Origin: Antrihabitans cavernicola
GTDB taxonomy: Bacteria; Actinomycetota; Actinomycetes; Mycobacteriales; Mycobacteriaceae
Direction: 5' to 3'
Length of the DNA stretch: 64,000 nt
Assembly (NCBI RefSeq): GCF_008297975.1
Contig: NZ_VLNY01000005.1
Span: forward strand, 1 to 64,000
Below are positions 44,530-64,000 of this stretch, piece after piece. Position 1 is the stretch's first letter; each line of letters begins with the position of its first letter. The notes beneath the pieces are model-generated. The model was not told the DNA's origin and ran no database searches. It saw only the letters and a list, made by a program, of their open reading frames with translations. The position numbers were made by a program, and so were the translations under genes.

Positions 44530-44616
44530 GTGGCGTACTGCCCAACCTCGAAGCCGCAATGAATACACCGATCGTCATGCAGGTGGCGTCATGACGGTTG
44601 CATCGAGTATCCCATC

Positions 44617-44639
44617 TAGGCATACTTTAGGTATGCCTA
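44617..44639 (+). promoter_or_regulatory. Operator over the antitoxin start codon
   Basis: A perfect 9-base inverted repeat, TAGGCATAC (44617-44625) and GTATGCCTA (44631-44639), has a 5-base centre TTTAG. The antitoxin ATG at 44633 lies in the right arm. Such dyads are typical of autoregulated toxin-antitoxin operons, where the antitoxin binds its own promoter. Confidence 0.8.
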
Positions 44640-44869
44640 TGACGACGATCAAGGTGGACGCCTCCATCCGAGACCGGTTGAAGGTCGAGGCCGTTCGAAA
44701 AGGAGTAACCATCGGCAAACTGTTGGAAGACCTTGTCGCGCTGAGTGAGCGAGAGGCACGCTTCGCCGCCATCAAGGAGGCAATCGAGGCAACCCCTCCG
44801 GCATCCATCGCCGCGTACGAGGCCGAGTTGCGGCACTGGTCTCGCCTCGAACCAGATGCCACACAGTGA
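44633..44869 (+). CDS. Antitoxin of a MazEF-like module (ribbon-helix-helix type)
   Basis: This 78-residue protein has a short N-terminal strand and two helices (TTIKVDASIRDRLKVEAVRK, GKLLEDLVALSEREARFAAI) like a ribbon-helix-helix antitoxin. The C-terminal acidic helix would wrap the toxin. ATGs at 44633 and 44639 are both possible and lie in a strong operator; a longer start at 44591 is less likely. Its GTGA overlap with the toxin gene couples their translation. The target is the MazF-type toxin encoded next. Confidence 0.85.
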   Translation: MPMTTIKVDASIRDRLKVEAVRKGVTIGKLLEDLVALSEREARFAAIKEAIEATPPASIAAYEAELRHWSRLEPDATQ

Positions 44870-45219
44870 GCCGGCATGCGCCGACAGAGCTGTCCCGAGG
44901 GTCCGTTGTCTGGATCGATTTCGACCCAACGCTCGGCCGCGAGCAATCAGGACACCGACCTGCACTGGTTGTGTCGAGCGACCACTACTTGGACGTCGTC
45001 ACCACACTTGCAATCGTTGTGCCCATCACGACAGTCGATCGAGGTTGGCCGAACCATGTACGTCTAGGCGACGAGGCAGGATTGAATCAACCGAGTTGGG
45101 CGATCGTCGAACAACCGCGCGCAGTCGCGAGGGTGCGGATTTCGGCATCCGCAGGATTCGCGAGCCGTTCGACAATGGCCACTGTCGATATGTACTTGAA
45201 AGACTTTCTCGGGCTGTGA
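44866..45219 (+). CDS. mazF: MazF/PemK-family endoribonuclease toxin
   Basis: The 117-residue protein has the MazF/PemK fold: RGSVVWIDFDPTLGREQSGH followed by RPALVVS, then VVPITTVDRGW and a C-terminal VDMYLKDFLGL helix. MazF toxins cut single-stranded RNA at short motifs; the conserved arginine and the SGHRPALVVS region are present, so activity is likely. The start is GTG at 44866, overlapping the antitoxin stop. The convergent SDR gene ends 12 bases away. Confidence 0.93.
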   Translation: MSRHAPTELSRGSVVWIDFDPTLGREQSGHRPALVVSSDHYLDVVTTLAIVVPITTVDRGWPNHVRLGDEAGLNQPSWAIVEQPRAVARVRISASAGFASRSTMATVDMYLKDFLGL

Positions 45220-47411: not shown

Positions 47412-48167
47412 ATGGCCGCCGAGCCCACACCGATTCGACGCCCGCGTGCCGACCAAGCACGTCAAGTGGCCGACGTGATGCGACACCAAATTCTTGCTCG
47501 CACATTCGAGTCGACCCTCCCCACCGAGTCTGCGTTGGCCGCCGAGTTCGACGTCTCACGCAACACCATCCGCGACGCACTAGCGCTACTGAAAGATCAA
47601 GGGCTCATCGACCGAGCACCCAAGGTCGGCACGCACGTTGCTCAACGCCGGTACGACCACGGGCTCGATGCGCTGCTCGGCCTGAAGGAAACCCTCAAAG
47701 GGCACGGCGACGTCCGCAACGAAGTTCGAGCCGCTATGCGTATCACCGCACCGCCTGCAGTGGCCCGTCGACTCCAGCTCTCCCCCGGCGAGCAGGCCGT
47801 CTACATCGAACGGCTGCGCTACCTCGGCGACATTCCACTGAGCCTCGACCTCACCTATCTCTCCCCCGACATCGGCGACGAGCTCATCACGCGCGACCTG
47901 GAATCCAACGACGTCTTCGCCCTCATCGAGCAGATCAGCGGCGGACCGCTCGGGTCGGCAGACCTTGCGCTGGAAGCGATCACAGCGGACGCGCACTCCG
48001 CGGCGACTTTGGAAGTCCCTGAGGGTGCAGCACTGCTGATGATGGAGCGCCTCACCAAGTTGGAAGACGGCCGACCCGTCGACCTCGAATACATCCGCAT
48101 GCGCGGTGACCGAATCACCATGCGCGGCAGCCTCACTCGCGATCCACTGAACTGGGAGATCACCTGA
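47412..48167 (+). CDS. GntR/HutC family regulator of the AprAB-like operon
   Basis: The 251-residue regulator has a GntR helix-turn-helix (LPTESALAAEFDVSRNTIRD, about 36-55) and a UTRA ligand domain (AVYIERLRYLGDIPLSLDLT, LEYIRMRGDRITM). UTRA domains sense small molecules, here probably the transported compound or its product. It has an AAAGGGGA ribosome site and is the first gene of a six-gene operon; its stop shares a base with the ferredoxin ATG (TGATG). The 228-base upstream gap (47184-47411) must hold the promoter, but I found no clear dyad in it. Confidence 0.92.
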   Translation: MAAEPTPIRRPRADQARQVADVMRHQILARTFESTLPTESALAAEFDVSRNTIRDALALLKDQGLIDRAPKVGTHVAQRRYDHGLDALLGLKETLKGHGDVRNEVRAAMRITAPPAVARRLQLSPGEQAVYIERLRYLGDIPLSLDLTYLSPDIGDELITRDLESNDVFALIEQISGGPLGSADLALEAITADAHSAATLEVPEGAALLMMERLTKLEDGRPVDLEYIRMRGDRITMRGSLTRDPLNWEIT

Positions 48168-48394
48168 TGGCATTGGTCAATCAGCGGGCCGACGTGCCCG
48201 TCACCATCGACGAATCACTGTGCATCGAGGGCTGCACCCTCTGCGTCGAAATCTGCCCACTCGACTCGCTCGCGATCAACCCGGACAACGGCAAAGCCTT
48301 CATGCATGTCGACGAATGTTGGTACTGCGGGCCATGTGCCGCCCGCTGCCCCACCGGGGCCGTCACCGTCAACATGCCGTATCTCCTGCGTTGA
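48167..48394 (+). CDS. AprB-like 4Fe-4S dicluster ferredoxin
   Basis: The 75-residue protein has eight cysteines arranged for two [4Fe-4S] clusters: Cys19, 23, 26, 30 (CIEGCTLCVEICP, with an unusual three-residue first gap) and Cys51, 54, 57, 61 (CWYCGPCAARCP). The CW-x-C-x-x-C pattern of the second cluster resembles AprB, the electron partner of adenylylsulfate reductase. The AprA-like flavoprotein at the end of the operon is its probable partner. It is coupled to the GntR gene by TGATG and lies 11 bases before the binding-protein gene. Confidence 0.9.
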   Translation: MALVNQRADVPVTIDESLCIEGCTLCVEICPLDSLAINPDNGKAFMHVDECWYCGPCAARCPTGAVTVNMPYLLR

Positions 48395-48405
48395 GGACCC
48401 CTTTC

Positions 48406-49812
48406 ATGAAACGAATCATCGCCCCACTCGTATTGGCGACCGCGTTGTCCCTGACCGCCGCAGGGTGCTCGCTCGAACAAACCGATACTGCCGACGGCAC
48501 CGTCAAGGTCGTCATCGGCTACCAGTCGAAGACCATCAACACCGTCACTGCCGGAACGCTTCTCAAGGCCAAGGGCTATCTCGAGCAGCGCCTGCAGAAG
48601 GTCACCGACAAGACCGGAACCAAGTACTCGGTGGAGTGGCAGGACTACGACACCGGCGCTCCCATCACCGCGCAGATGGTCGCCCAGAAGATCGACATCG
48701 GTTCGATGGGCGACTACCCGTTGCTGATCAACGGATCTCGCACCCAATCCGTCGAGGCTGCGCAGACCCAGCTCGTCTCGATCACCGGTTACAACCCCAA
48801 GGGCGCGCTCAATATGGTTGTGGTGCCGCCTGATTCGACGGCAACATCGATCGATGACCTGAAGGGCCAAAAGGTCTCGGCGAGCGTGGGCTCCGCCGGC
48901 CACGGCACTCTCGTCCAGGCGCTGAGCCGTGCCGGTATCGACCCGAAAACCGGCGTCGAAGTGCTCAACCAGCAACCGCAGGTCGGCGCATCGGCGCTGG
49001 AATCTGGCCAGGTGAAGGCACTTTCGCAGTTCGTGGCATGGCCCGGACTGCTGGTGTTCGAGAACAAGGCGAAGCTGCTCTACGACGGTGCCGAGCTGAA
49101 CGTCCCGACGTTCCATGGGGTCGTCGCCCGCAAGTCGTACTCCAGTGCACATCCCGAGGTGCTCGACGCGTTCCTACAGGCGCAACTCGACGCGACGACG
49201 TTCATCCAGCAGCAGCCGCTCGAAGCAGCCAAGCTGGTCGCCGACGGTTCCGGCTTGCCTGCCGAGGTCGTCTACCTCTACAACGGTCCCGGTGGCACCT
49301 CGTTCGACACCACACTGAAGCCGAGCCTGATCACCGCGTTCAAGGGCGACGTTGCTTACCTGAAGTCGATCGGTGACTTCGCCGATCTCGACATCGACAA
49401 GTTCGTCAACGACGAGCCGCTACGCAAGGCGTACAGCGAAGTGGGACAGGGCAACTACGACACCGACCTCGCCAACACTGCCAACCCCACGGCGGTGCCG
49501 GGCACGACGAATCCGGCGCTAGCCGGTGACATCTGGTTCGACGGCGCCGACAAGACGGTGCCCGAGGCCGACCCGACGTCGCTTCTGCGTGCGGTGAAAG
49601 CGGCGCAGGCCGACGGCAAGAAGGTCAAGGCCGCCTATGTGCCCGACGCCGAGCTCGGCACCCGCTGGTTCGCCGACAAGGCCATCTGGGTACGCGACGG
49701 CGACACCTTCCTACCCTTCACCACGACCGCCGCAGCACAGCGCTACCACCAAGCACATCCGACGGGAACCACGGTGTCCTACGAGCAGGCAGTCTCGGAG
49801 GTTCGGCAATGA
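48406..49812 (+). CDS. ABC substrate-binding lipoprotein (SsuA/NMT1-like) with NosL-like C-terminal segment
   Basis: The 468-residue lipoprotein (lipobox LTAAGC) is of the sulfonate/taurine/nitrate binding type: KVVIGYQSKTINTVTAG, IDIGSMGDYPLLINGS, TSIDDLKGQKVSASVGSAG. It is about 120-150 residues longer than usual. The extra C-terminal part ends in TRWFADKAIWVRDGDTFLPF and a following HPTGTTVSYEQAVSEV, which resembles the end of NosL-type domains. A fused NosL-like segment could bind a metal or a second ligand. It overlaps the permease gene by ATGA. Confidence 0.88.
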   Translation: MKRIIAPLVLATALSLTAAGCSLEQTDTADGTVKVVIGYQSKTINTVTAGTLLKAKGYLEQRLQKVTDKTGTKYSVEWQDYDTGAPITAQMVAQKIDIGSMGDYPLLINGSRTQSVEAAQTQLVSITGYNPKGALNMVVVPPDSTATSIDDLKGQKVSASVGSAGHGTLVQALSRAGIDPKTGVEVLNQQPQVGASALESGQVKALSQFVAWPGLLVFENKAKLLYDGAELNVPTFHGVVARKSYSSAHPEVLDAFLQAQLDATTFIQQQPLEAAKLVADGSGLPAEVVYLYNGPGGTSFDTTLKPSLITAFKGDVAYLKSIGDFADLDIDKFVNDEPLRKAYSEVGQGNYDTDLANTANPTAVPGTTNPALAGDIWFDGADKTVPEADPTSLLRAVKAAQADGKKVKAAYVPDAELGTRWFADKAIWVRDGDTFLPFTTTAAAQRYHQAHPTGTTVSYEQAVSEVRQ

Positions 49813-50663
49813 CCGCCGTGCTGTCGGCGCCGGTGACCGAGTCCGTCGCGGAGGCAACCCCGGCAGTCCGCAGCAGGAATACCCACGTCTGGCGTTCCCG
49901 CGCAATCAAACTGGCGTCCGTGCTCGTCGCCATCGGCGCCTGGCAGTTGCTCACCGCGAACAACGTCCGACTTTGGTTGCGCTTCGACACGCTACCTACG
50001 GTCACCGAGATCCTCTCAGCGTTCGGCCGTCAGCTCGGTACCGACACCTACTACCTGGACCTCGCTCAGTCGTTGATCCGCATCCTCACCGGATTCGGTC
50101 TCGCAGCACTGGTCGGCGTCGCGAGCGGTATCGCGTTGGGTCGCTCGCGCCTGTTCGCGGACATACTCGGTCCACTCACCGAGTTGGCCAGACCCATCCC
50201 GGCCATCGCGGTGGTGCCGGTCGCAATCCTGTTGTTCCCCAACGACGAAGCCGGAATCGTGTTCATCACGTTCCTCGCCGCCTACTTCCCGATCATGGTC
50301 AGTACCCGCCACGCAGTGCGCGCCCTGCCGACCCTGTGGGAAGACTCCGTCCGTACGCTCGGCGGTAGTCGATGGGACGTGCTGCTGCGAGTCGTGCTGC
50401 CCGGCAGCCTCCCCGGCGTGTTCGGTGGGCTGTCGGTCGGCATCGGAGTGTCCTGGATCTGCGTGATCTCGGCGGAGATGATCTCCGGCAGGCTCGGTGT
50501 CGGCTACCGCACCTGGCAGGCGTACACGATCGTCGATTACCCGGGTGTCTTCGTCGGCATCATCACCATCGGAGTGCTGGGCTTCGCCACCTCGGCCGCC
50601 GTCGAAATTCTCGGTCGCCGTGTCACCCGCTGGCTGCCCCGCGCCGAGGAGAACGCGCGATGA
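49809..50663 (+). CDS. ABC transporter permease (SsuC/TauC-like)
   Basis: This 284-residue membrane protein has about six to seven helices and the EAA loop of the SsuC/TauC family (ALPTLWEDSVRTLGGSRWDV followed by LLRVVLPGSLPGVFGG). It forms the channel for the binding protein encoded before it. It overlaps both neighbours by ATGA, which implies strict co-translation. Confidence 0.92.
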   Translation: MTAVLSAPVTESVAEATPAVRSRNTHVWRSRAIKLASVLVAIGAWQLLTANNVRLWLRFDTLPTVTEILSAFGRQLGTDTYYLDLAQSLIRILTGFGLAALVGVASGIALGRSRLFADILGPLTELARPIPAIAVVPVAILLFPNDEAGIVFITFLAAYFPIMVSTRHAVRALPTLWEDSVRTLGGSRWDVLLRVVLPGSLPGVFGGLSVGIGVSWICVISAEMISGRLGVGYRTWQAYTIVDYPGVFVGIITIGVLGFATSAAVEILGRRVTRWLPRAEENAR

Positions 50664-51415
50664 CCAGCACTTTGAAAAGCACACGTGTTGCCGCGGGCAT
50701 GAGCCTGCGACTCGACGACGTCACCTTGTCCTACACCGGAACTCCGGTCATCGCAGGTCTGTCGCTCGACGTGCGTCCGGGCGAGATCCTGGTGTTGACC
50801 GGACCGTCGGGCTGCGGAAAGTCGACGGTACTCCGTGCATTGGCAGGCCTACTTGCACCCGACTCCGGCCGCATCACGGCGGACGGCGACACGGTCACCA
50901 CCACCTCCCGCGACCGCGCTGTCGTGTTTCAGGACAACGCACTACTACCCTGGCGTTCGGTCCGCTCCAACATCGAACTGGCGCTGAAGCTTCGCGGCGA
51001 GCCGAAGACCGGTCGTCGCGCCGCCGCCGACCGTTGGATCGACGAGGTCGGGTTGACCGGATTCGGTGACTATTTCCCGAAGAATCTATCGGGTGGTATG
51101 CGCCAGCGCGTGCAATTGGCGCGCGGTCTCGCAGGCGCACCTCGTGCGGTGATGATGGACGAGCCGTTCGGCGCCCTCGACACCCAGACCCGAGCGACCG
51201 TGCAGCGCTTGCTCATCGACACGTGGAGCACCCACCCGACCACCCTCGTCTTCGTGACACACGATGTCGACGAGGCCCTGCTCCTCGGCGACCGCGTCGC
51301 CGTGCTCGGCCGCGCGGGCCAGCCGCTGCGCGCACTCCTCGATGTACCCAGCCCTCGTGAATCGGTCGACCGCACCACGACAAGGGCCGAAATCCTTACT
51401 GCACTGGAGAATTGA
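50660..51415 (+). CDS. ABC transporter ATP-binding protein (SsuB/TauB-like)
   Basis: The 251-residue ATPase has Walker A GPSGCGKST, Q-loop VFQDNALLPWRSV, signature LSGGMRQRVQLARGL, Walker B AVMMDEPFGALDT and the switch-histidine segment VFVTHDVDEALLL. It energises the sulfonate-type importer. The ATG overlaps the permease stop (ATGA), and its stop shares a base with the flavoprotein ATG (TGATG). Confidence 0.94.
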   Translation: MTSTLKSTRVAAGMSLRLDDVTLSYTGTPVIAGLSLDVRPGEILVLTGPSGCGKSTVLRALAGLLAPDSGRITADGDTVTTTSRDRAVVFQDNALLPWRSVRSNIELALKLRGEPKTGRRAAADRWIDEVGLTGFGDYFPKNLSGGMRQRVQLARGLAGAPRAVMMDEPFGALDTQTRATVQRLLIDTWSTHPTTLVFVTHDVDEALLLGDRVAVLGRAGQPLRALLDVPSPRESVDRTTTRAEILTALEN

Positions 51416-54090
51416 TGCAAGCCCCCGAATTGGCCGACACCGTCCGTCTCGATTGCGACGTCCTGGTGATCGGCGGCGGAACCGCGGGAACGATGGCCGC
51501 ACTGACCGCCGCCGAGAACGGCGCAAACGTCCTGTTGCTGGAGAAGGCACACGTCCGCCACTCGGGTGCCCTCGCGATGGGCATGGACGGCGTCAACAAC
51601 GCCGTCATTCCCGGTAAGGCCGAGCCTGAGGACTACGTCGCCGAGATCACTCGCGCCAACGACGGAATCGTCAACCAGCGCACCGTGTATCAGACCGCGA
51701 CGCGCGGCTTCGCGATGGTGCAACGGCTCGAGCGTTACGGCGTCAAGTTCGAGAAGGACGAGTACGGCGAGTACGCCGTCCGCCGTGTGCACCGCTCCGG
51801 CTCGTACGTGCTGCCGATGCCCGAGGGCAAGGACGTGAAGAAGGCGCTGTACCGCGTACTGCGGCAGCGCAAGATGCGCGAGAAGATCCGAATCGAGAAC
51901 CGGTTGATGCCGGTGCGGGTCCTCACCGAGAACGGCCGAGCCGTCGGTGCCGCTGCATTGAACACGCGGACAGGCGAATTCGTCGCCGTCGGCGCCAAGG
52001 CCGTCATCCTCGCCACCGGCCCGTGCGGCCGCCTGGGGCTTCCCGCGTCGGGCTATTTGTACGGCACCTACGAGAACCCCACCAACGCGGGTGACGGCTA
52101 CTCGATGGCCTACCACGCAGGTGCCGAACTCAGCGGCATCGAATGCTTCCAGATCAACCCGCTGATCAAGGACTACAACGGTCCGGCGTGCGCGTACGTT
52201 GCGAACCCGTTCGGCGGCTACCAGGTCAACGCGCAAGGTGAGCGCTTCGTCGACTCCGACTATTGGTCCGGCGCGATGATGAGTGAGGTCAAGGCGGAGA
52301 TCGAATCCGCCCGCGGCCCCATATATCTCAAGGTATCGCATCTACCGAACGAAACTCTGGACACTCTCGAAAGCATCCTGCACACCACCGAGCGTCCGAC
52401 GCGTGGCACCTTCCACGCCAACCGCGGCCACGATTACCGCACGCACGACATCGAGATGCACATCTCCGAGATCGGTTTGTGCAGTGGGCATTCCGCGTCA
52501 GGCGTGTGGGTGGACGAGAAAGCCCGCACCACGGTCCCCGGCCTGTATGCCGCGGGCGACCTGGCTTGCGTACCGCACAACTACATGATCGGCGCGTTCG
52601 TCTACGGCGACCTGGCAGGCGCGGACGCTTCGTCGACGCTGCCGGATGTCGCTGCGCCGGAATCACTCCCGGAAGACCAGCTGAAGGAAGCTCACGAGCT
52701 GATCTACCGTCCGCTGCAACATCCCGACGGTCCCCCGCAGCCGCAGGTCGAGTACAAGCTGCGCCGCTTCGTCAACGATTATGTCGCACCGCCGAAGACT
52801 GCCACCAAGCTGTCCATCGCGGTCGAGACGTTCGAGCGGATGCGCGACGAGATCGCCAAGATGGGCGCCACCACTCCGCACGAGTTGATGCGCACTGTGG
52901 AAGTCTCGTTCATCCGGGACTGCGCCGAGATGGCGTCGCGGTCATCGCTGACCCGGACCGAATCACGTTGGGGCCTCTACCACGAGCGCGCTGACCTACC
53001 CGAGCGTGACGACGTGGAGTGGCGCTACCACCTCAACCTCAGCAAGAACGCCGACGGCGAGATGGAGTTCGTGAAGCGGCCTGTCGCACCGTATTTCGTT
53101 CCGGTTCCGGGTCTCGACGATCTGCCGCCTGCCGATCAGTCGTCGCACCACGTGCACCAGCCGGATCTGGTCGGCGGCCGCGCACCTGCGGAGGAACTCA
53201 GCCGTCTGCAGCCGGTGGCGCGCACCGAGCCGTCGTCGCCGCGCATCGTCGAGGTACTCGGCTTGGACTCCCCCGACACCGAGGAACTCGCGTCGTACCT
53301 CACCGACGAGGACGCACAGGTCCGGACTACGGCGCTGTCGGTGCTGACCGAAGGCACCCCGGATGGGTTCGCGGTGCCGCTGGTGGCGGCATTGGGTGAC
53401 GCGGATGTGTCGGTTCGACGAGCAGCGACCGAAGGCTTGCGCGAACTGGTCGAGGTACTGCCATCAGCGGACGGCATTGTCGCCCATATCGATTCGAGCG
53501 ACGCATCGGTGCGGGCGACCGTCATCGACCTGCTGCGTGCATTGTACGCGGGCGGTGCCGACTTGTTCGCTCGCTCGATCACCGACCCCGACCACCGCGT
53601 CCGCATCGAAGCCGTGCGTGCACTGGTCTCGGTCGACGATTGGGAAGCCGTCGCGTCGGCTGCCGGCGACGACAACCGCGAAGTCCGGGTTGCCGTCGCA
53701 CACGGACTCGCGACGATCGGCACCGGCGGTGCCGACACCGCGCGCACCCTGGTCGACGACCGTGACCCTCTTGTCCGCGCCGCGGCCCTCACGGCGTTCG
53801 CCGGACTCGGCGCCACCGACGACGACGCGGTGGTGCTGAGCAAAGCCCTGACCGAATCTGCCTGGCAGGTAAGGCAAGGTGCGGCACGAGGCCTGGCAGG
53901 CGCCACACCCTCGAGTGCGGTCCCTGCCCTGGCTACGGCGCTGTCCGATCCGCATCTCGACGTGCGCAAGGCCGCGGTGCTGTCGTTGAGCAATTGGTCC
54001 GACAATGACTCGGCGCGAGATGCACTGGCGACGGCGTTGGCAGACAACGACGCCGACGTGCGCGCCTACGCACGTCGGGCCGTCGCCTGA
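51415..54090 (+). CDS. AprA-like FAD flavoprotein fused to HEAT repeats
   Basis: This 891-residue protein has an N-terminal fumarate-reductase/AprA-type flavoprotein (about 1-560): GGGTAGTMAALTAAE for FAD, IKDYNGPACAY (251-261, like the FKDGYGPVGAW segment of AprA), SGHSASGVWVDEKA with His359 at the position of the AprA active-site histidine, LYAAGDLACVPHNY, and a SRWGLYHERADLPERDD tail. A linker follows, then nine HEAT repeats of about 30 residues (about 615-891; e.g. LVAALGDADVSVRRAATEGL), like PBS-lyase HEAT modules. True AprA has no HEAT domain. It probably takes electrons from the AprB-like ferredoxin to act on the imported compound. Confidence 0.9.
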   Translation: MQAPELADTVRLDCDVLVIGGGTAGTMAALTAAENGANVLLLEKAHVRHSGALAMGMDGVNNAVIPGKAEPEDYVAEITRANDGIVNQRTVYQTATRGFAMVQRLERYGVKFEKDEYGEYAVRRVHRSGSYVLPMPEGKDVKKALYRVLRQRKMREKIRIENRLMPVRVLTENGRAVGAAALNTRTGEFVAVGAKAVILATGPCGRLGLPASGYLYGTYENPTNAGDGYSMAYHAGAELSGIECFQINPLIKDYNGPACAYVANPFGGYQVNAQGERFVDSDYWSGAMMSEVKAEIESARGPIYLKVSHLPNETLDTLESILHTTERPTRGTFHANRGHDYRTHDIEMHISEIGLCSGHSASGVWVDEKARTTVPGLYAAGDLACVPHNYMIGAFVYGDLAGADASSTLPDVAAPESLPEDQLKEAHELIYRPLQHPDGPPQPQVEYKLRRFVNDYVAPPKTATKLSIAVETFERMRDEIAKMGATTPHELMRTVEVSFIRDCAEMASRSSLTRTESRWGLYHERADLPERDDVEWRYHLNLSKNADGEMEFVKRPVAPYFVPVPGLDDLPPADQSSHHVHQPDLVGGRAPAEELSRLQPVARTEPSSPRIVEVLGLDSPDTEELASYLTDEDAQVRTTALSVLTEGTPDGFAVPLVAALGDADVSVRRAATEGLRELVEVLPSADGIVAHIDSSDASVRATVIDLLRALYAGGADLFARSITDPDHRVRIEAVRALVSVDDWEAVASAAGDDNREVRVAVAHGLATIGTGGADTARTLVDDRDPLVRAAALTAFAGLGATDDDAVVLSKALTESAWQVRQGAARGLAGATPSSAVPALATALSDPHLDVRKAAVLSLSNWSDNDSARDALATALADNDADVRAYARRAVA

Positions 54091-56804: not shown

Positions 56805-56882
56805 TCGCAAAGGTGTCGTATCGCTCGTCGATGGCATGAACTGACTCGGTTGTCTGTCATCACGAGTTCAGGAGCCACAGCC

Positions 56883-58259
56883 ATGTCACGCGAGATCCGT
56901 TTCAACGCCTTCGACATGAACTGTGTCGCTCATCAATCGCCCGGTCTGTGGCGCCACCCCGACGATCAGTCGGCGCGGTACAAGGAGCTCGGTTACTGGA
57001 CCGAGCTGGCAAAGCTGTTGGAGGTCGGCAAGTTCGACGGCCTGTTCATCGCCGACGTCCTCGGCACCTACGACGTGTACGGCGGCAACCACGAGGCGGC
57101 CATTCGTCAGGGTGCGCAGATCCCGGTGTCCGACCCGCTGTTGCTCGTGACCGCACTCGCGTCGGTCACCGACCATCTGGGCTTCGGAATCACGGCCGGA
57201 ACGGGTTTCGAGCATCCGTACCCGTTCGCGCGTCGCCTCTCCACCCTCGATCACCTCACCAACGGACGGATCGGCTGGAACGTCGTCACCGGATATCTAC
57301 CCTCGGCAGCGCAGAACATGGGCCACGACGACCAGTTGCAGCACGACGACCGCTACGACCACGCCGACGAGTACCTCGAGGTTCTCTACAAACTGTGGGA
57401 AGGCTCCTGGGAAGACGACGCCGTTGTCCGCGATCGGGAGACCGGAGTGTTCACCGACCCCGCAAAGGTGCACCCGATCGAGCATCGCGGCAAGCACTTC
57501 ACCGTTCCTGGAATACATTTGGCGGAACCATCGGTACAGCGCACACCGGTGATCTTCCAGGCAGGGGCATCACCTCGCGGCACCCGTTTCGCCGCCGAGA
57601 ATGCGGAAGCGATCTTTGTCGGCGCACCCACCAAAGCCATCTTGAAGAACACGGTGGCCAACATTCGTGAGGCACTGAAGAAGGCCGGACGCGACCCCTA
57701 CTCGGCGCGGATCTACCAGCTCCTCACCATCATCACCGACGAGACCTCGGACGCGGCACACGCGAAACATGCCGAGTACCAGTCGTATGCGAGCGATGAG
57801 GGTGCACTGGTCTTCATGTCGGGGTGGATGGGCATCGATCTGTCGAAGTACGACCTGGACGAGCCGATCGGCAACGTGGAGAGCAACGCGATCCAGTCGT
57901 TCGTCAGCGCATTCCAACAGGCCAGCGGCGACGGTAGTGAGTGGACCGTGCGCGATATCGCGGCGTGGGGCGGCATCGGCGGTGCGGGGCCGCGCGTCGT
58001 CGGATCGCCTGCGGAGGTCGCAGACGAATTGCAGGCCTGGGTCGACGAGACCGATGTCGACGGCTTCAATCTCGCCTACGCGATCACACCGGGAACGTTC
58101 GAAGACGTCGTGAAGTACGTGGTCCCCGAGTTGCAGCGGCGCGGCGTCTATCGCACCGAGTACACGGAAGGGACGCTGCGAAACAAGCTGCTCGGAAAGG
58201 GCGATCGACTGCCTGACGACCACCGAGGCGCAAGCTACCGAATCGGCGCGAGCGGCTAG
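56883..58259 (+). CDS. NtaA/DmoA family FMN-dependent monooxygenase
   Basis: The 458-residue flavin-dependent monooxygenase belongs to the NtaA/SnaA/DszA/DmoA group: FNAFDMNCVAHQSPGLWRHP at the start, FDGLFIADVLGTYDVYGGN, TGFEHPYPFARRLSTLDHL, GRIGWNVVTGYLPSAAQNMG, and RTPVIFQAGASPRG. These use reduced FMN from a reductase to attack sulfur compounds (dimethyl sulfide, dibenzothiophene sulfone) or aminopolycarboxylates. The start ATG at 56883 has AGGAG upstream. No reductase gene is adjacent. Location near the AprAB-like operon is suggestive but they are separate transcripts. Confidence 0.92.
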   Translation: MSREIRFNAFDMNCVAHQSPGLWRHPDDQSARYKELGYWTELAKLLEVGKFDGLFIADVLGTYDVYGGNHEAAIRQGAQIPVSDPLLLVTALASVTDHLGFGITAGTGFEHPYPFARRLSTLDHLTNGRIGWNVVTGYLPSAAQNMGHDDQLQHDDRYDHADEYLEVLYKLWEGSWEDDAVVRDRETGVFTDPAKVHPIEHRGKHFTVPGIHLAEPSVQRTPVIFQAGASPRGTRFAAENAEAIFVGAPTKAILKNTVANIREALKKAGRDPYSARIYQLLTIITDETSDAAHAKHAEYQSYASDEGALVFMSGWMGIDLSKYDLDEPIGNVESNAIQSFVSAFQQASGDGSEWTVRDIAAWGGIGGAGPRVVGSPAEVADELQAWVDETDVDGFNLAYAITPGTFEDVVKYVVPELQRRGVYRTEYTEGTLRNKLLGKGDRLPDDHRGASYRIGASG

Positions 58260-60505: not shown

Positions 60506-63500
60506 TCACCCGCGCTTCACAATCCACTCGTCGAGCAGTGGACCGATCTGGGTCAACGACGCCTCTGCCAGCATCTCGGTGTGCCGCGACATGATCGGCT
60601 GATTCTCGATACGCCCCCGGACGTACGGCTGCCACTTGGAGGCGTCGGCTGCACTCGCCAGCCCCTCCAATTGCGCTGTGAAGAACAACATGTCGCCGTC
60701 GAATGCCTGGGGCCGATATTCGTTGACCAGTTTTGCCGCCCCTGCCGCATCGGCAAAGATTCGCTGAATCCGATCTGCGGTGAAGTCGGCGATATCGGCC
60801 TGGGTAGCGGCGATGAACTGCTCAGCCTTCTCGGTCGAGAGGTCTGCCAGATCCATGTCGTCGCGGACGGCCACCCCCGTGGATCTGAAGAAGGCGCGCA
60901 GCGCCTTCATGAACAGGTCGCTGTCCATTTCGAGGTGGCTGTCCGCCAATGCAAGAACCGACACCTCCGCGCCGGTCGCCTGCAGGTGCACAGCCATCGC
61001 ATGCGCGACTACGCCGCCCAGCGACCACCCGAACAGGCGATACGGCCCCTCCGGCTGGACCGTACGAATCTCCGCGACATAGCGCGCCGCCATCTGGTCG
61101 ATCGATGTCGGCGACGGCTCGGAAGCAACGATATTGGGCGACTGAATTCCGACGATGTCGGTTCGGTCGAGGTGCCGCGTCAACGCTAGGTATTGCCACG
61201 CGAGTCCACCGACCGGATGAACGCAGAACAGCGGCGGTCCATCACCTGATTCTCGAATGGGAAGCAACACTTCCAGCCCCCCCGTGTCCTCCATGACGAC
61301 GTCCGGTCGTTCGATCTTGGCCGCCAGCTCGGCCACCGTGCGATGGGTGAACAACCAGCGCAGCCCGACATCGAGCGCGGTCGCGTCCTTGATCTTCGTG
61401 ATGGCTTGCGCGCCGACCAGCGAGTTGCCGCCGAGTGTGAAGAAATCGTCGTTGCGCCCGACCCGGTCGATGTCGAGCAGTTCGGCAAACACCTCGGCGA
61501 CAGCGCGCTCCACCGGCGTACGCGGCTCCTCGAACACCAAGTCGTTGGATCGGGTCGGCTTCGGCAATGCCTTGCGGTCCAACTTTCCGCTGGAGTTCGA
61601 CGGAAACGATTCGAGCACCACGATCGTGTCCGGAACCATGTAGCCGGGCAGCCGATCACGTAGAGCAGACAGCAACCGTTCCGGGGAGGGCGCGGTGCCG
61701 GTCACGCCGACCACGTAGCCGACCAGCTGCTCCCCCACCGCCGTTGCGACCACTTCGACGGCCGCCTGCGATACCTGCGCAGACTCGGTCAGAGCAGCCT
61801 CCACCTCGCCGAGCTCGATCCGCTGGCCTCGCAGCTTCACCTGGAAGTCGGTGCGGCCCAGGTAGTTCAAACCACCCCGAACGTTCCAGGAGGCCAGGTC
61901 ACCGGAACGGTACATCCGAGATCCGGCTGCGCCGAACGGATTTGCGACAAACCTGTCCGCGGTCAGATCGGGGCGCGCGACGTAGCCGCGCGCGAGTTGC
62001 GCACCGGCCAGATAGAGTTCACCGGTCACACCGACAGGCACCGGTGCCAGATTGGCGTCGAGAACGTAGACCTGGGTGTTCCAGATCGGCCGCCCGATGG
62101 GTACCGGTAGCCCATTGGCGAAAGCGCGTGCCGCCGTGACGGATACGGCAGCTTCCGTGGGACCGTACAGGTTGTGCAAGGCGGCATCGCTGACACGGCT
62201 CAACGCTGTCACCGTCGCAGGCGGCAAAGCCTCGCCGATCACGAAGACGCACCGCAACGTCGCCAACGCGCTGGGATCGGCTCCGCCTGCAAACACTGCG
62301 AGCATCGACGGCACGAAGTCGGTCACCGTGATCCGTTGCTCCGCAATGAGCTTGGCAACGTAGGAAGGGTTGCGATGCCCGTCCGGCGTAGCGAGCACCA
62401 GTCGGGCGCCGGAGCGCCACGGCACGAAGTACCCCCACATCGACACGTCGAACGTGGTGGCAGTCTTCTGGAGGTACGCATCTTCCGCGGACATCGGGTA
62501 GGTCGACTGCATCCATTCCAGCTGATTGAGGAAGGCCCCGCGTGACACCGAGACGCCCTTGGGGCGACCTGTCGATCCCGACGTGAAGATGACGTAGGCA
62601 GGGTTCGTGGCGACCGCGGGCCTGAAACCGGTTGCGGTGGCTGAGTATTCGGCCGCGTCGAGCAGATCGACTCGAACGACGGGCAAGTCATCGGGCACCA
62701 CCAGGTCGATATCGCCGTTGGTCAGCACGCATACCGGCCCGGCAGTCTCGAAGATGTAGGCGTTTCGGGTCGGCGGGTGGTCGGGGTCCACCGGAACGAA
62801 CGCTCCCCCGGCTCGCAGAACGGCATACATGGCGACGACCAGATCGACCGACCGGCGAATCGCCAGCGCGACAAGCGACTCCGGACCCACACCCAGCGTC
62901 GTCAAATGCGCCGCCAGCAAATCGATCTGCTCGCCGACCTCGGCAAAGGTCATGGCGACGCCCTCGAACGCCAACGCCGTCGCGTCGGGTGTTCGGCGAA
63001 CTCGATCATCGAATGCCGCCAGGATGTCGGCGTCGACAACCTTGTGCGCGGTGGCATTTCGCACGACCAGCAATTCGTGTCGCTCGTCCGGCGTCACGAT
63101 GTCGATCGCGCCGATTCGGCAGTCGCCCTCGTCGGCCATCGCGGTCAGGATACGAATGAGACGCTCGCCGAGTGCACTGACCTCGGTGCGGTCGAAAAGG
63201 TCGCTCAGGTAACGCAATTGCAGATGGATACCGGTGTCCACGGTCGTCACGAGGGTCAACGGATAGTGAGTGGCGTCCTGCAGCCTCACCCCCGTCAGCG
63301 CCATTCCGTCGACGGCACTTGCTTGTTCCGCCAAACCCTGCGCATCGATCGGATACGACTCGAAGACCGTGAGAGTGTCGAAGACCGCCGCACCGTTTGC
63401 GGCGCTCTGGATCTCGGAGATGCCCAGGTAATGGTGGTCGAGCAATCGTGCCTGTTCGGTTTGTACTCGAACCAGCAGATTTTCGACGGTCTCGTCCAGG

Positions 63501-64000
63501 TCGAGGCGGACCCGCACGGGCAGGGTGTTGATGAACAAGCCGACCATCGACTCGACACCCGCCAAACCAGCGGGCCTACCCGACACGGTCGCGCCGAACA
63601 CCACGTCGTCGCGCGCCAGCATCCGTCCGAGAAGAACGCCCCACGATGCCTGCACCACCGTGTTGAGCGTGACTCCGAGATCCCCTGCCCGGGCTGTCAT
63701 TCTGGTCGTCAGATCCACATCGAGGTCGAGGCTCACCGAATCCGACAACGCACTCAGCTCGCGCCCAGGATCGATCGCGGCCACCAGCGTGGATTCGGCG
63801 CCGGCCAGCTCTGCCTGCCAGATGTGCAGCGACACATCGCGATCCTGCTCACCGACCCAGGCCAGATAGGACCGGTATGGACGCACGCGCGGTAACGCCG
63901 AGCCGTCGCCACCGGTCGCGTAGAGGCTCAGGAGATCTTTGAGCAACAGCGGCATAGACCAGCCGTCGAGCAGTATGTGGTGGTTGGTCACCACTAGGGC
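60506..64000 (-). CDS. Non-ribosomal peptide synthetase, terminal module (partial, 5' end outside window)
   Basis: The visible part (about 1165 codons, open to the right edge) gives the end of an NRPS: a partial condensation domain starting at the catalytic HHILLDGWS motif, an adenylation domain ([40 protein letters not shown]), a PCP with phosphopantetheine serine ([13 protein letters not shown]), and a thioesterase with [13 protein letters not shown] as nucleophile elbow. By eye against EntF the specificity residues read D V W D F I L V S K, not a code I recognise. It would release the peptide by hydrolysis or cyclisation; siderophore synthesis is a common use in Nocardiaceae. Confidence 0.93.

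Follow-up and report, generated by a model that had tools for sequence, protein, structure and literature searches.

The operon at 47412-54090

Here, we analyse six genes that lie head to tail at 47412-54090 of the first 64,000 nucleotides of the Antrihabitans cavernicola contig NZ_VLNY01000005.1 (the window, i.e., the whole stretch of DNA that was analysed). They encode a transcriptional regulator, a small ferredoxin, an ATP-binding cassette (ABC) importer with its substrate-binding protein (SBP), and a large flavoprotein resembling AprA of the AprAB enzyme that reduces adenylylsulfate (APS). A reading-frame check confirmed the operon and its position: an overlap of one or four bases is seen at four of the five junctions, and an 11-base gap at the remaining one. 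A sequence-only reading of the window had already described six overlapping or nearly touching genes, and the frames as well as the Pfam and NCBIfam families confirm them. The HEAT-repeat half of the flavoprotein and the C-terminal extension of the SBP were absent from that reading. The features are as follows.

47412..48167, + strand: GntR-UTRA transcriptional regulator (PF00392, PF07702)
48167..48394, + strand: AprB-like ferredoxin of 75 amino acids (Fer4_7); its start shares one base with the preceding stop
48406..49812, + strand: lipoprotein SBP, SsuA domain (SsuA family/NMT1) plus C-terminal extension; preceded by the 11-base gap
49519..49809, + strand: NosL-like C-terminal extension of the SBP, about residues 372-468 (homologue alignment, bounds by eye)
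49809..50663, + strand: ABC permease (PF00528, BPD_transp_1); four-base overlap with the SBP gene
50660..51415, + strand: ABC ATPase (PF00005, ABC_tran); four-base overlap with the permease gene
51415 (ATG)..54090, + strand: flavoprotein of 891 amino acids (FAD_binding_2, Succ_DH_flav_C, HEAT_2); one-base overlap
51415..53109, + strand: AprA-like FAD domain of the flavoprotein, residues 1-565 (NF010374, NF006131, PDB matches)
53278..54087, + strand: HEAT-repeat domain fused to the flavoprotein (PF13646, predicted structure); a separate gene elsewhere

Family, active site and partners of the flavoprotein

The flavoprotein is a full member of NF010374 (PRK13800; 1744 bits over residues 1-890, cut-off 1196) and also passes the cut-off of NF006131 (PRK08275; 869 bits over residues 9-565, cut-off 587). 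NCBIfam names both families "fumarate reductase/succinate dehydrogenase", which appears misleading and is not borne out by our tree. The fumarate reductase/succinate dehydrogenase model TIGR01812 is not passed (154.9 bits, cut-off 567.3), and the AprA models TIGR02061 (135.8 bits, cut-off 641.75) and NF005331 (274.8 bits, cut-off 557) stay below their cut-offs as well. The closest solved structure is 8a8o_A, the alpha subunit of the Methanothermococcus phosphoadenylylsulfate (PAPS) reductase (MtPAPSR; E 3e-57), with AprA (E 2e-31) and SdhA (E 6.5e-25) behind it in the same search; a query with the family profile finds 8a8o at E 1.9e-83.

For the tree we used 28 family rows, five AprA rows, five PAPS-reductase-type rows and two flavoproteins of the own genome that are SdhA/FrdA-like by eye, leaving out near-duplicate AprA rows (L139, L142, L143), remote own-genome flavoproteins (L004, L006) and characterised FrdA. 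All 28 family rows fall into one separate clade (100/99) with a long stem, next to AprA and the PAPS-reductase type, and the two SdhA/FrdA-like rows fall outside this group (100/100); these two rows, on long branches, are the whole outgroup, and the program warned of long branches meeting. The phylogeny that the sequence-only reading had proposed as a check thus sets the family apart from both sides, which supports the view that the flavoprotein is probably neither SdhA/FrdA-like nor AprA itself.

The family is also common. NF010374 is present in 8/296 genomes drawn from the phylum, and among 72,556 plasmid records, 54 contain a relative of the flavoprotein. These come from Actinomycetota, Proteobacteria and cyanobacteria; one of them (Ilyobacter) is of the PAPS-reductase type and is accompanied by cysC and cysD. 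In genome contigs we confirmed at least 584 stretches of the family, of which the nearest 80, all actinobacterial, were examined. As some of the strains are related, neither the plasmid nor the genome counts represent independent events. From the 54 plasmid loci, 22 were fetched; 21 belong to the family (20 non-actinobacterial) and 17 of these 21 are annotated. The sequence-only reading had found an AprBA pair unexpected in an aerobic actinobacterium. This puzzle dissolves, since the flavoprotein belongs to a separate, common family that is already modelled in NCBIfam.

Two further loci were noted. In Ensifer adhaerens a second, remote fumarate-reductase-like flavoprotein (L122, 13829-15451) lies near the module and adjoins another Ssu-like ABC set. 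L128 (5829-15443) holds sulfite reductase and a PAPS-reductase-type AprAB in a row with ATP sulfurylase, an Ssu-like importer and a cysteine-synthase-like gene (partly by eye), likely an assimilatory sulfate reduction cluster.

We then compared active-site residues of the 28 family rows with those of seven AprA and five PAPS-reductase-type rows (divergent L144 left out), taking residue numbers and roles for A. fulgidus and Methanothermococcus from PMC2211403 and PMC10322725, respectively. Asn74 and His398 of A. fulgidus AprA contact sulfate oxygens (PMC2211403). Their counterparts Asn61 and His359, as well as His388 (AprA His446), are conserved in 28/28 family rows; that is, the active-site histidine singled out from the sequence alone is indeed kept. 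Equally uniform are the replacements, i.e., Trp234 by Tyr219, Arg265 by Leu250, Gln145 by Val132, Lys281 by Gly267 and Tyr95 by Glu77. Arg265 is the arginine preceding FKDGYGP in AprA, whose loss had been suspected. The invariant AprA arginine at about 317 is Met288 in all 28 rows (placed by position, one residue off by count), and Leu278, which with Arg317 makes up the AMP clamp, has become Ala (19), Thr (8) or Gly (1). Taken together, the alignment shows the AprA positions for phosphate, ribose, adenine and flavin stacking altered. Lys281, Gln145 and Tyr95 vary in the PAPS-reductase-type rows as well, and Tyr95 also among AprA rows, so that Arg265, Trp234 and Arg317 carry the argument about the nucleotide site.

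Relative to MtPAPSR, the positions of R121, S122 and W206 hold Tyr, Val and Tyr in 28/28 rows and that of K120 is mixed (S 12, T 8, A 4, K 3, N 1); the S122 position differs within the PAPS-reductase-type rows themselves (Ser in 2, Asn in 3). Beside the active-site motifs, the family has gained three invariant cysteines (Cys244, Cys259, Cys356). With the sulfo-end residues kept and the nucleotide-end residues replaced, the pocket would have retained its sulfo end and largely lost its nucleotide end. The replacements in all 28 rows thus point to a substrate other than APS, as had been proposed earlier; the residue pattern argues against APS or PAPS more firmly than it argues for any other substrate.

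AlphaFold models have a mean pLDDT of 62 for the flavoprotein and 57 for the SBP; much of the flavin domain is below 50 and only the HEAT part is good. The HEAT repeats span about residues 620-890 (pLDDT 88-96 over about 621-880). In 20/20 non-actinobacterial loci a separate HEAT-repeat gene stands beside flavoprotein and ferredoxin, so the actinobacterial flavoprotein is a fusion of partners that probably touch.

The ferredoxin carries two 4Fe-4S motifs, an ECWYC motif with the AprB-type tryptophan and a PYLLR end, and ECW is common to 15/15 aligned ferredoxins, the Ilyobacter PAPS-reductase-type one included. Its PDB matches comprise the MtPAPSR beta subunit 8a8o_C and AprB 3gyx_B among many other ferredoxins. 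It thus has the cluster motifs and the electron-transfer tryptophan of AprB and does not pass the AprB model TIGR02060 (29.8 bits, cut-off 135.65). Next to 15/20 non-actinobacterial loci there is a gene for a DUF971 protein or an Mrp-type ATPase (by annotation and homology; two DUF971 genes by eye); Pfam classes the Mrp match as an iron-transfer NTPase, which makes a role in cluster loading likely. FdxA occurs near three of the 20 loci (L031, L125, L126), two of which (L125, L126) also have a ferredoxin-NADP reductase nearby, which suits electron input. In L214 and L223, the importer is likewise followed by FdxA-like pieces.

Importer, sulfatase exchange and sulfur neighbours

To relate importer and enzyme, we compared their occurrence in 61 related genomes. 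Thirteen of these have the FAD domain (E up to 1e-100), and 12 of the 13, but no other genome, also have the SBP (E up to 1e-60; Fisher p 7e-12). This supports that importer and enzyme form one unit and agrees with the earlier idea of a dedicated importer. Among the 20 non-actinobacterial loci, 15 have the long-SBP importer, with the SBP of L123 reading in two pieces; in the locus comparisons and the SBP tree, part of the homologue translations were used with stop signs removed unchecked; a further set that was checked contained none. The window SBP scores 129.3 bits with TIGR01728 (SsuA), i.e., below the cut-off of 163.5, with clear membership of the superfamily, and its PDB matches are taurine- and sulfonate-binding proteins.

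NosL (PF05573) is matched by the SBP homologues in L038 (28.7 bits) and L039 (27.8 bits; cut-off 24), and at 18.6 bits in L034. Pfam gave no NosL match for the window extension or for three sulfatase-type SBPs scanned whole. The metal ligands of NosL are Met/Cys. A copper role of the NosL-like part was considered and dropped, as such ligands are not visible here and the three sulfatase-type SBPs lack the match.

Related SBPs also accompany a different enzyme. With the Rhizobium protein as query, 44 plasmid records contain the SBP (E up to 1e-40), and 42 of them also the flavoprotein, in two cases (Acidithiobacillus) only as a fragment. The other two, Gordonia amicalis and Paraburkholderia largidicola p2, have an arylsulfatase, a formylglycine-generating enzyme and SulP. 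In 296 genomes of the class we found 35 SBP loci in 33 genomes: 31 with the flavoprotein within the stretch read, three with a sulfatase (L179, L212, L213) and one with neither (L224). The five sulfatases (L179-L181, L212, L213) are mutually 70-94% identical, have the motif CTPTR and show no signal peptide by eye; the importers accompanying them are far apart.

This is also reflected in the SBP tree with 24 flavoprotein-type rows. The Paraburkholderia sulfatase-type SBP is nested in the proteobacterial flavoprotein type (96/92), and four actinobacterial sulfatase-type SBPs group together (99/99) and join, with weaker support (88/91), two actinobacterial flavoprotein-type SBPs. At least two switches between sulfatase and flavoprotein follow from the starred branches, the direction of change not being set by the tree. 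The regulators show a related pattern: the window GntR is 44-46% identical to regulators of actinobacterial sulfatase-type operons and 30-31% to the next GntRs of its own genome. Two GntRs in the Paraburkholderia sulfatase locus are 33-35% identical to the window regulator, and 41-52% and 54-68% identical to regulators of four proteobacterial flavoprotein operons. A SulP gene lies near the sulfatase in sulfatase-type loci, and TauE/SafE, TSUP or sulfate-exporter genes lie near the flavoprotein in 5/17 annotated loci; a hydrolase giving sulfate by SulP and a reductase by sulfite-exporter-family genes make a consistent pair.

Neighbouring genes were judged on plasmids because many mycobacterial loci sit in a nusB/pepQ/pyrB region (by eye) that is functionally uninformative. 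Outside the operon, sulfur-named genes occur in 9/17 annotated plasmid loci (L027, L028, L029, L033, L034, L035, L039, L123, L127), namely TauE/SafE or TSUP transporters, sulfate/sulfonate ABC genes, tauA, ssuD, tauD and NtaA/DmoA. These make up 16/198 non-operon neighbours compared to 0/169 control features (p 4e-5), counted by hand from product names after the tables had been seen and leaving out YeiH (L039), ThiS (L034) and an SBP adjacent to the enzyme in Nostoc. Four of these plasmids each supplied one 50-kb control window, and the rhizobial plasmids in the set are mutually related. The neighbourhood survey proposed earlier thus yields a sulfur signal. Among four unannotated stretches, two encode SsuD-like proteins and one an SfnB-like protein (L120, L122; model matches below cut-off). 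The proposal of an organosulfur substrate accordingly gains support from its context, i.e., these loci and the sulfatase in the enzyme's place.

In the window itself, an NtaA/DmoA-family monooxygenase is encoded downstream of the operon at 56850-58259 (568 bits, cut-off 279.7), and an apparent response regulator and histidine kinase (by eye) lie in between. Farther off, again by eye, a large minus-strand frame at 60506-63994 with an HHILLDGWS motif is probably a nonribosomal peptide synthetase condensation domain, and a small gene pair at 44591-45219 resembles MazEF/PemK-type toxin-antitoxin systems.

A candidate reaction and its alternatives

Our first, still tentative choice is that an imported small -SO3 compound, most likely a sulfate ester, would be reductively desulfated to sulfite by the ferredoxin-fed flavoprotein. 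In its strict form, i.e., a reductive sulfatase in which an AprAB relative would turn the imported ester into alcohol and sulfite with no ATP activation, the idea is possible but more doubtful. A sulfate ester is favoured because a sulfatase is found in the enzyme's place. The SsuA-type importer would take up the -SO3 compound, and the GntR regulator may sense it or a product. By analogy, the AprB-like ferredoxin could receive electrons from NAD(P)H or FdxA and would hand them to the FAD of the HEAT-bearing flavoprotein. The reduced flavin N5 would attack the sulfur, the alcohol part would leave, and the flavin-sulfite adduct would decay to sulfite for sulfite reductase or export. Cargo, reaction, direction and the roles of the HEAT and NosL-like parts are all inferred. 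For AprA, PMC2211403 describes N5 attack on sulfur, departure of AMP and release of sulfite from an N5-sulfite adduct; flavin N5 adducts also appear in PMC7662398.

Energetically, this reaction seems feasible. The sulfate/sulfite couple lies at -516 mV and the APS couple at -60 mV. Assuming a guessed 20-30 kJ/mol for the ester, arithmetic gives a couple of about -410 to -360 mV, within reach of a ferredoxin. The same arithmetic needs 88 kJ/mol for the APS value of -60 mV and gives -101 mV for 80 kJ/mol, the figure quoted for APS in PMC2211403.

Several observations weigh against an ester-cleaving reductase. First, the chemistry: an alcohol is a poorer leaving group than AMP, and the lost Arg265 and Trp234 aid catalysis in AprA too, so that their loss needs compensation. 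Second, the cargo: the named sulfur neighbours are mostly sulfonate-related and not sulfate-ester-related, and 8/17 annotated loci (L026, L030, L031, L032, L036, L038, L121, L126) have no sulfur-named neighbour. That a sulfatase occupies the enzyme's position could result from a change in what is imported. The importer family may also transport other compounds, since in L224 (2491-8689) overlapping frames link relatives of SBP, permease and ATPase to a galactokinase and to a glycosidase-like gene, the latter being a weak model match. Third, the module: genome G408 (L178) keeps GntR, ferredoxin and flavoprotein with no importer within the 19 kb read, and an intact long-SBP importer is missing or broken in 5/20 non-actinobacterial loci (L027, L030, L031, L122, L124). 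M. adipatum has the regulator, sulfatase, formylglycine-generating enzyme and SulP and no such SBP within 17.5 kb. L178 also has a TauE-like gene (29% identical, E 9e-8) at a distance of about 4 kb from the flavoprotein set.

The cargo of the actinobacterial sulfatase loci may moreover be special, since gyrB and a DUF202 gene are confined to them: both occur in 5/5 such loci, M. adipatum included, and in neither the Paraburkholderia locus nor 129 flavoprotein loci (some from the same genomes; five family loci lie outside this set). The gyrB genes, 73-89% identical to the M. adipatum copy, are located as follows.

L179: 1948-3867
L180: 2600-4510
L212: 12414-14342
L213: 6394-8313
L247: 8579-10498

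Presumably these are extra copies, two of which lie on plasmids. They raise the possibility that DNA gyrase is affected by the desulfated compound, for which flavonoid sulfates as the source would be a guess.

The SsuA-type importer and the sulfur neighbours make a sulfonate the main rival cargo. The same class of chemistry would then cleave a C-S bond, or an N-S or S-S bond of a sulfamate or S-sulfonate, to give sulfite, which we consider rather unlikely. The SsuA/TauA-like SBP and the neighbours fit it, i.e., ssuD, tauA, tauD and NtaA/DmoA by annotation and the SsuD- and SfnB-like proteins by model matches below cut-off, while the replacing enzyme is a sulfatase, acting on sulfate esters or N-sulfates, and a sulfonate would impose a difficult carbanion leaving group.

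Unlikely, and slightly more so, is a non-sulfur substrate, i.e., a fumarate-reductase-like or other redox step on an imported acid with incidental sulfur neighbours. The NCBIfam name, the absence of AprA Arg265/Trp234, the new cysteines and the SBP relative coupled to glycosidase-like gene and galactokinase would suit it; the flavoprotein's place apart from SdhA/FrdA-like rows, the closer PAPS reductase structure, the kept sulfo-site Asn and His, the sulfur neighbours and the sulfatase in the enzyme's place speak against it. We regard an oxidative direction as improbable, in which sulfite (or sulfinate) from an imported organosulfur compound would be detoxified with electrons passing to ferredoxin. 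Sulfur oxidisers are presumed to use AprBA in the reverse direction (PMC2211403) and the sulfite-exporter-family genes also fit sulfite stress, but reverse AprA requires AMP, whose binding residues are replaced, the operon has no desulfonating enzyme, and the ferredoxin-NADP reductase genes nearby suggest that electrons flow in. Homology speaks for a true APS or PAPS reductase that was recruited into sulfate assimilation, a reading that can practically be dismissed, as the replaced nucleotide-binding residues largely contradict it, the importer is SsuA-type, and the annotation of the 17 annotated family stretches lists neither ATP sulfurylase nor APS kinase (plasmid gene tables being incomplete), while the PAPS-reductase-type L037 carries both.

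Compared to known systems, the operon is closest to MtPAPSR (8a8o; PMC10322725), the closest solved relative, which has an assimilatory role and likewise pairs an FAD alpha subunit with a small di-cluster ferredoxin bearing the tryptophan; the window family is in contrast a separate clade with K120/R121/S122 and W206 not kept, a HEAT partner and a dedicated importer. With AprBA it shares the wider family, Asn74, His398, His446 and the ferredoxin type, whereas Arg265, Trp234, Gln145, Lys281, Arg317 (by position) and Tyr95 are replaced and no ATP sulfurylase is annotated beside it. Pseudomonas atsRBC/atsA combines sulfate-ester uptake with an arylsulfatase. Such systems, L179-L181, L212 and L213 included, join an SsuA-type ABC importer to a desulfating enzyme as proposed here, but theirs is a hydrolase releasing sulfate and the window has a flavin/iron-sulfur enzyme. 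Importer family and sulfur neighbourhood are shared with the Ssu/Tau sulfonate systems, whose oxygen-dependent monooxygenase or dioxygenase is missing inside the operon.

Searches of an open-access library gave nothing that, judged by title and start of abstract, describes this operon; family identifiers gave only unrelated results, and the ABC genes named in the accessible part of PMC8557817 could not be matched to it. As far as searched, the family is thus known to databases by sequence and undescribed in function. Overall, the sequence-only reading, i.e., a different and perhaps organosulfur substrate, is supported in outline.

Since related importers are accompanied by a sulfatase, the question of the substrate can be put to the test. 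If the proposed desulfation is true, it would be a new enzymatic entry to sulfur assimilation in aerobes, leading from organic sulfate to sulfite in one two-electron step, by an AprA-type enzyme acting without a nucleotide. A large family misnamed 'fumarate reductase' in public annotation would thereby gain a role.

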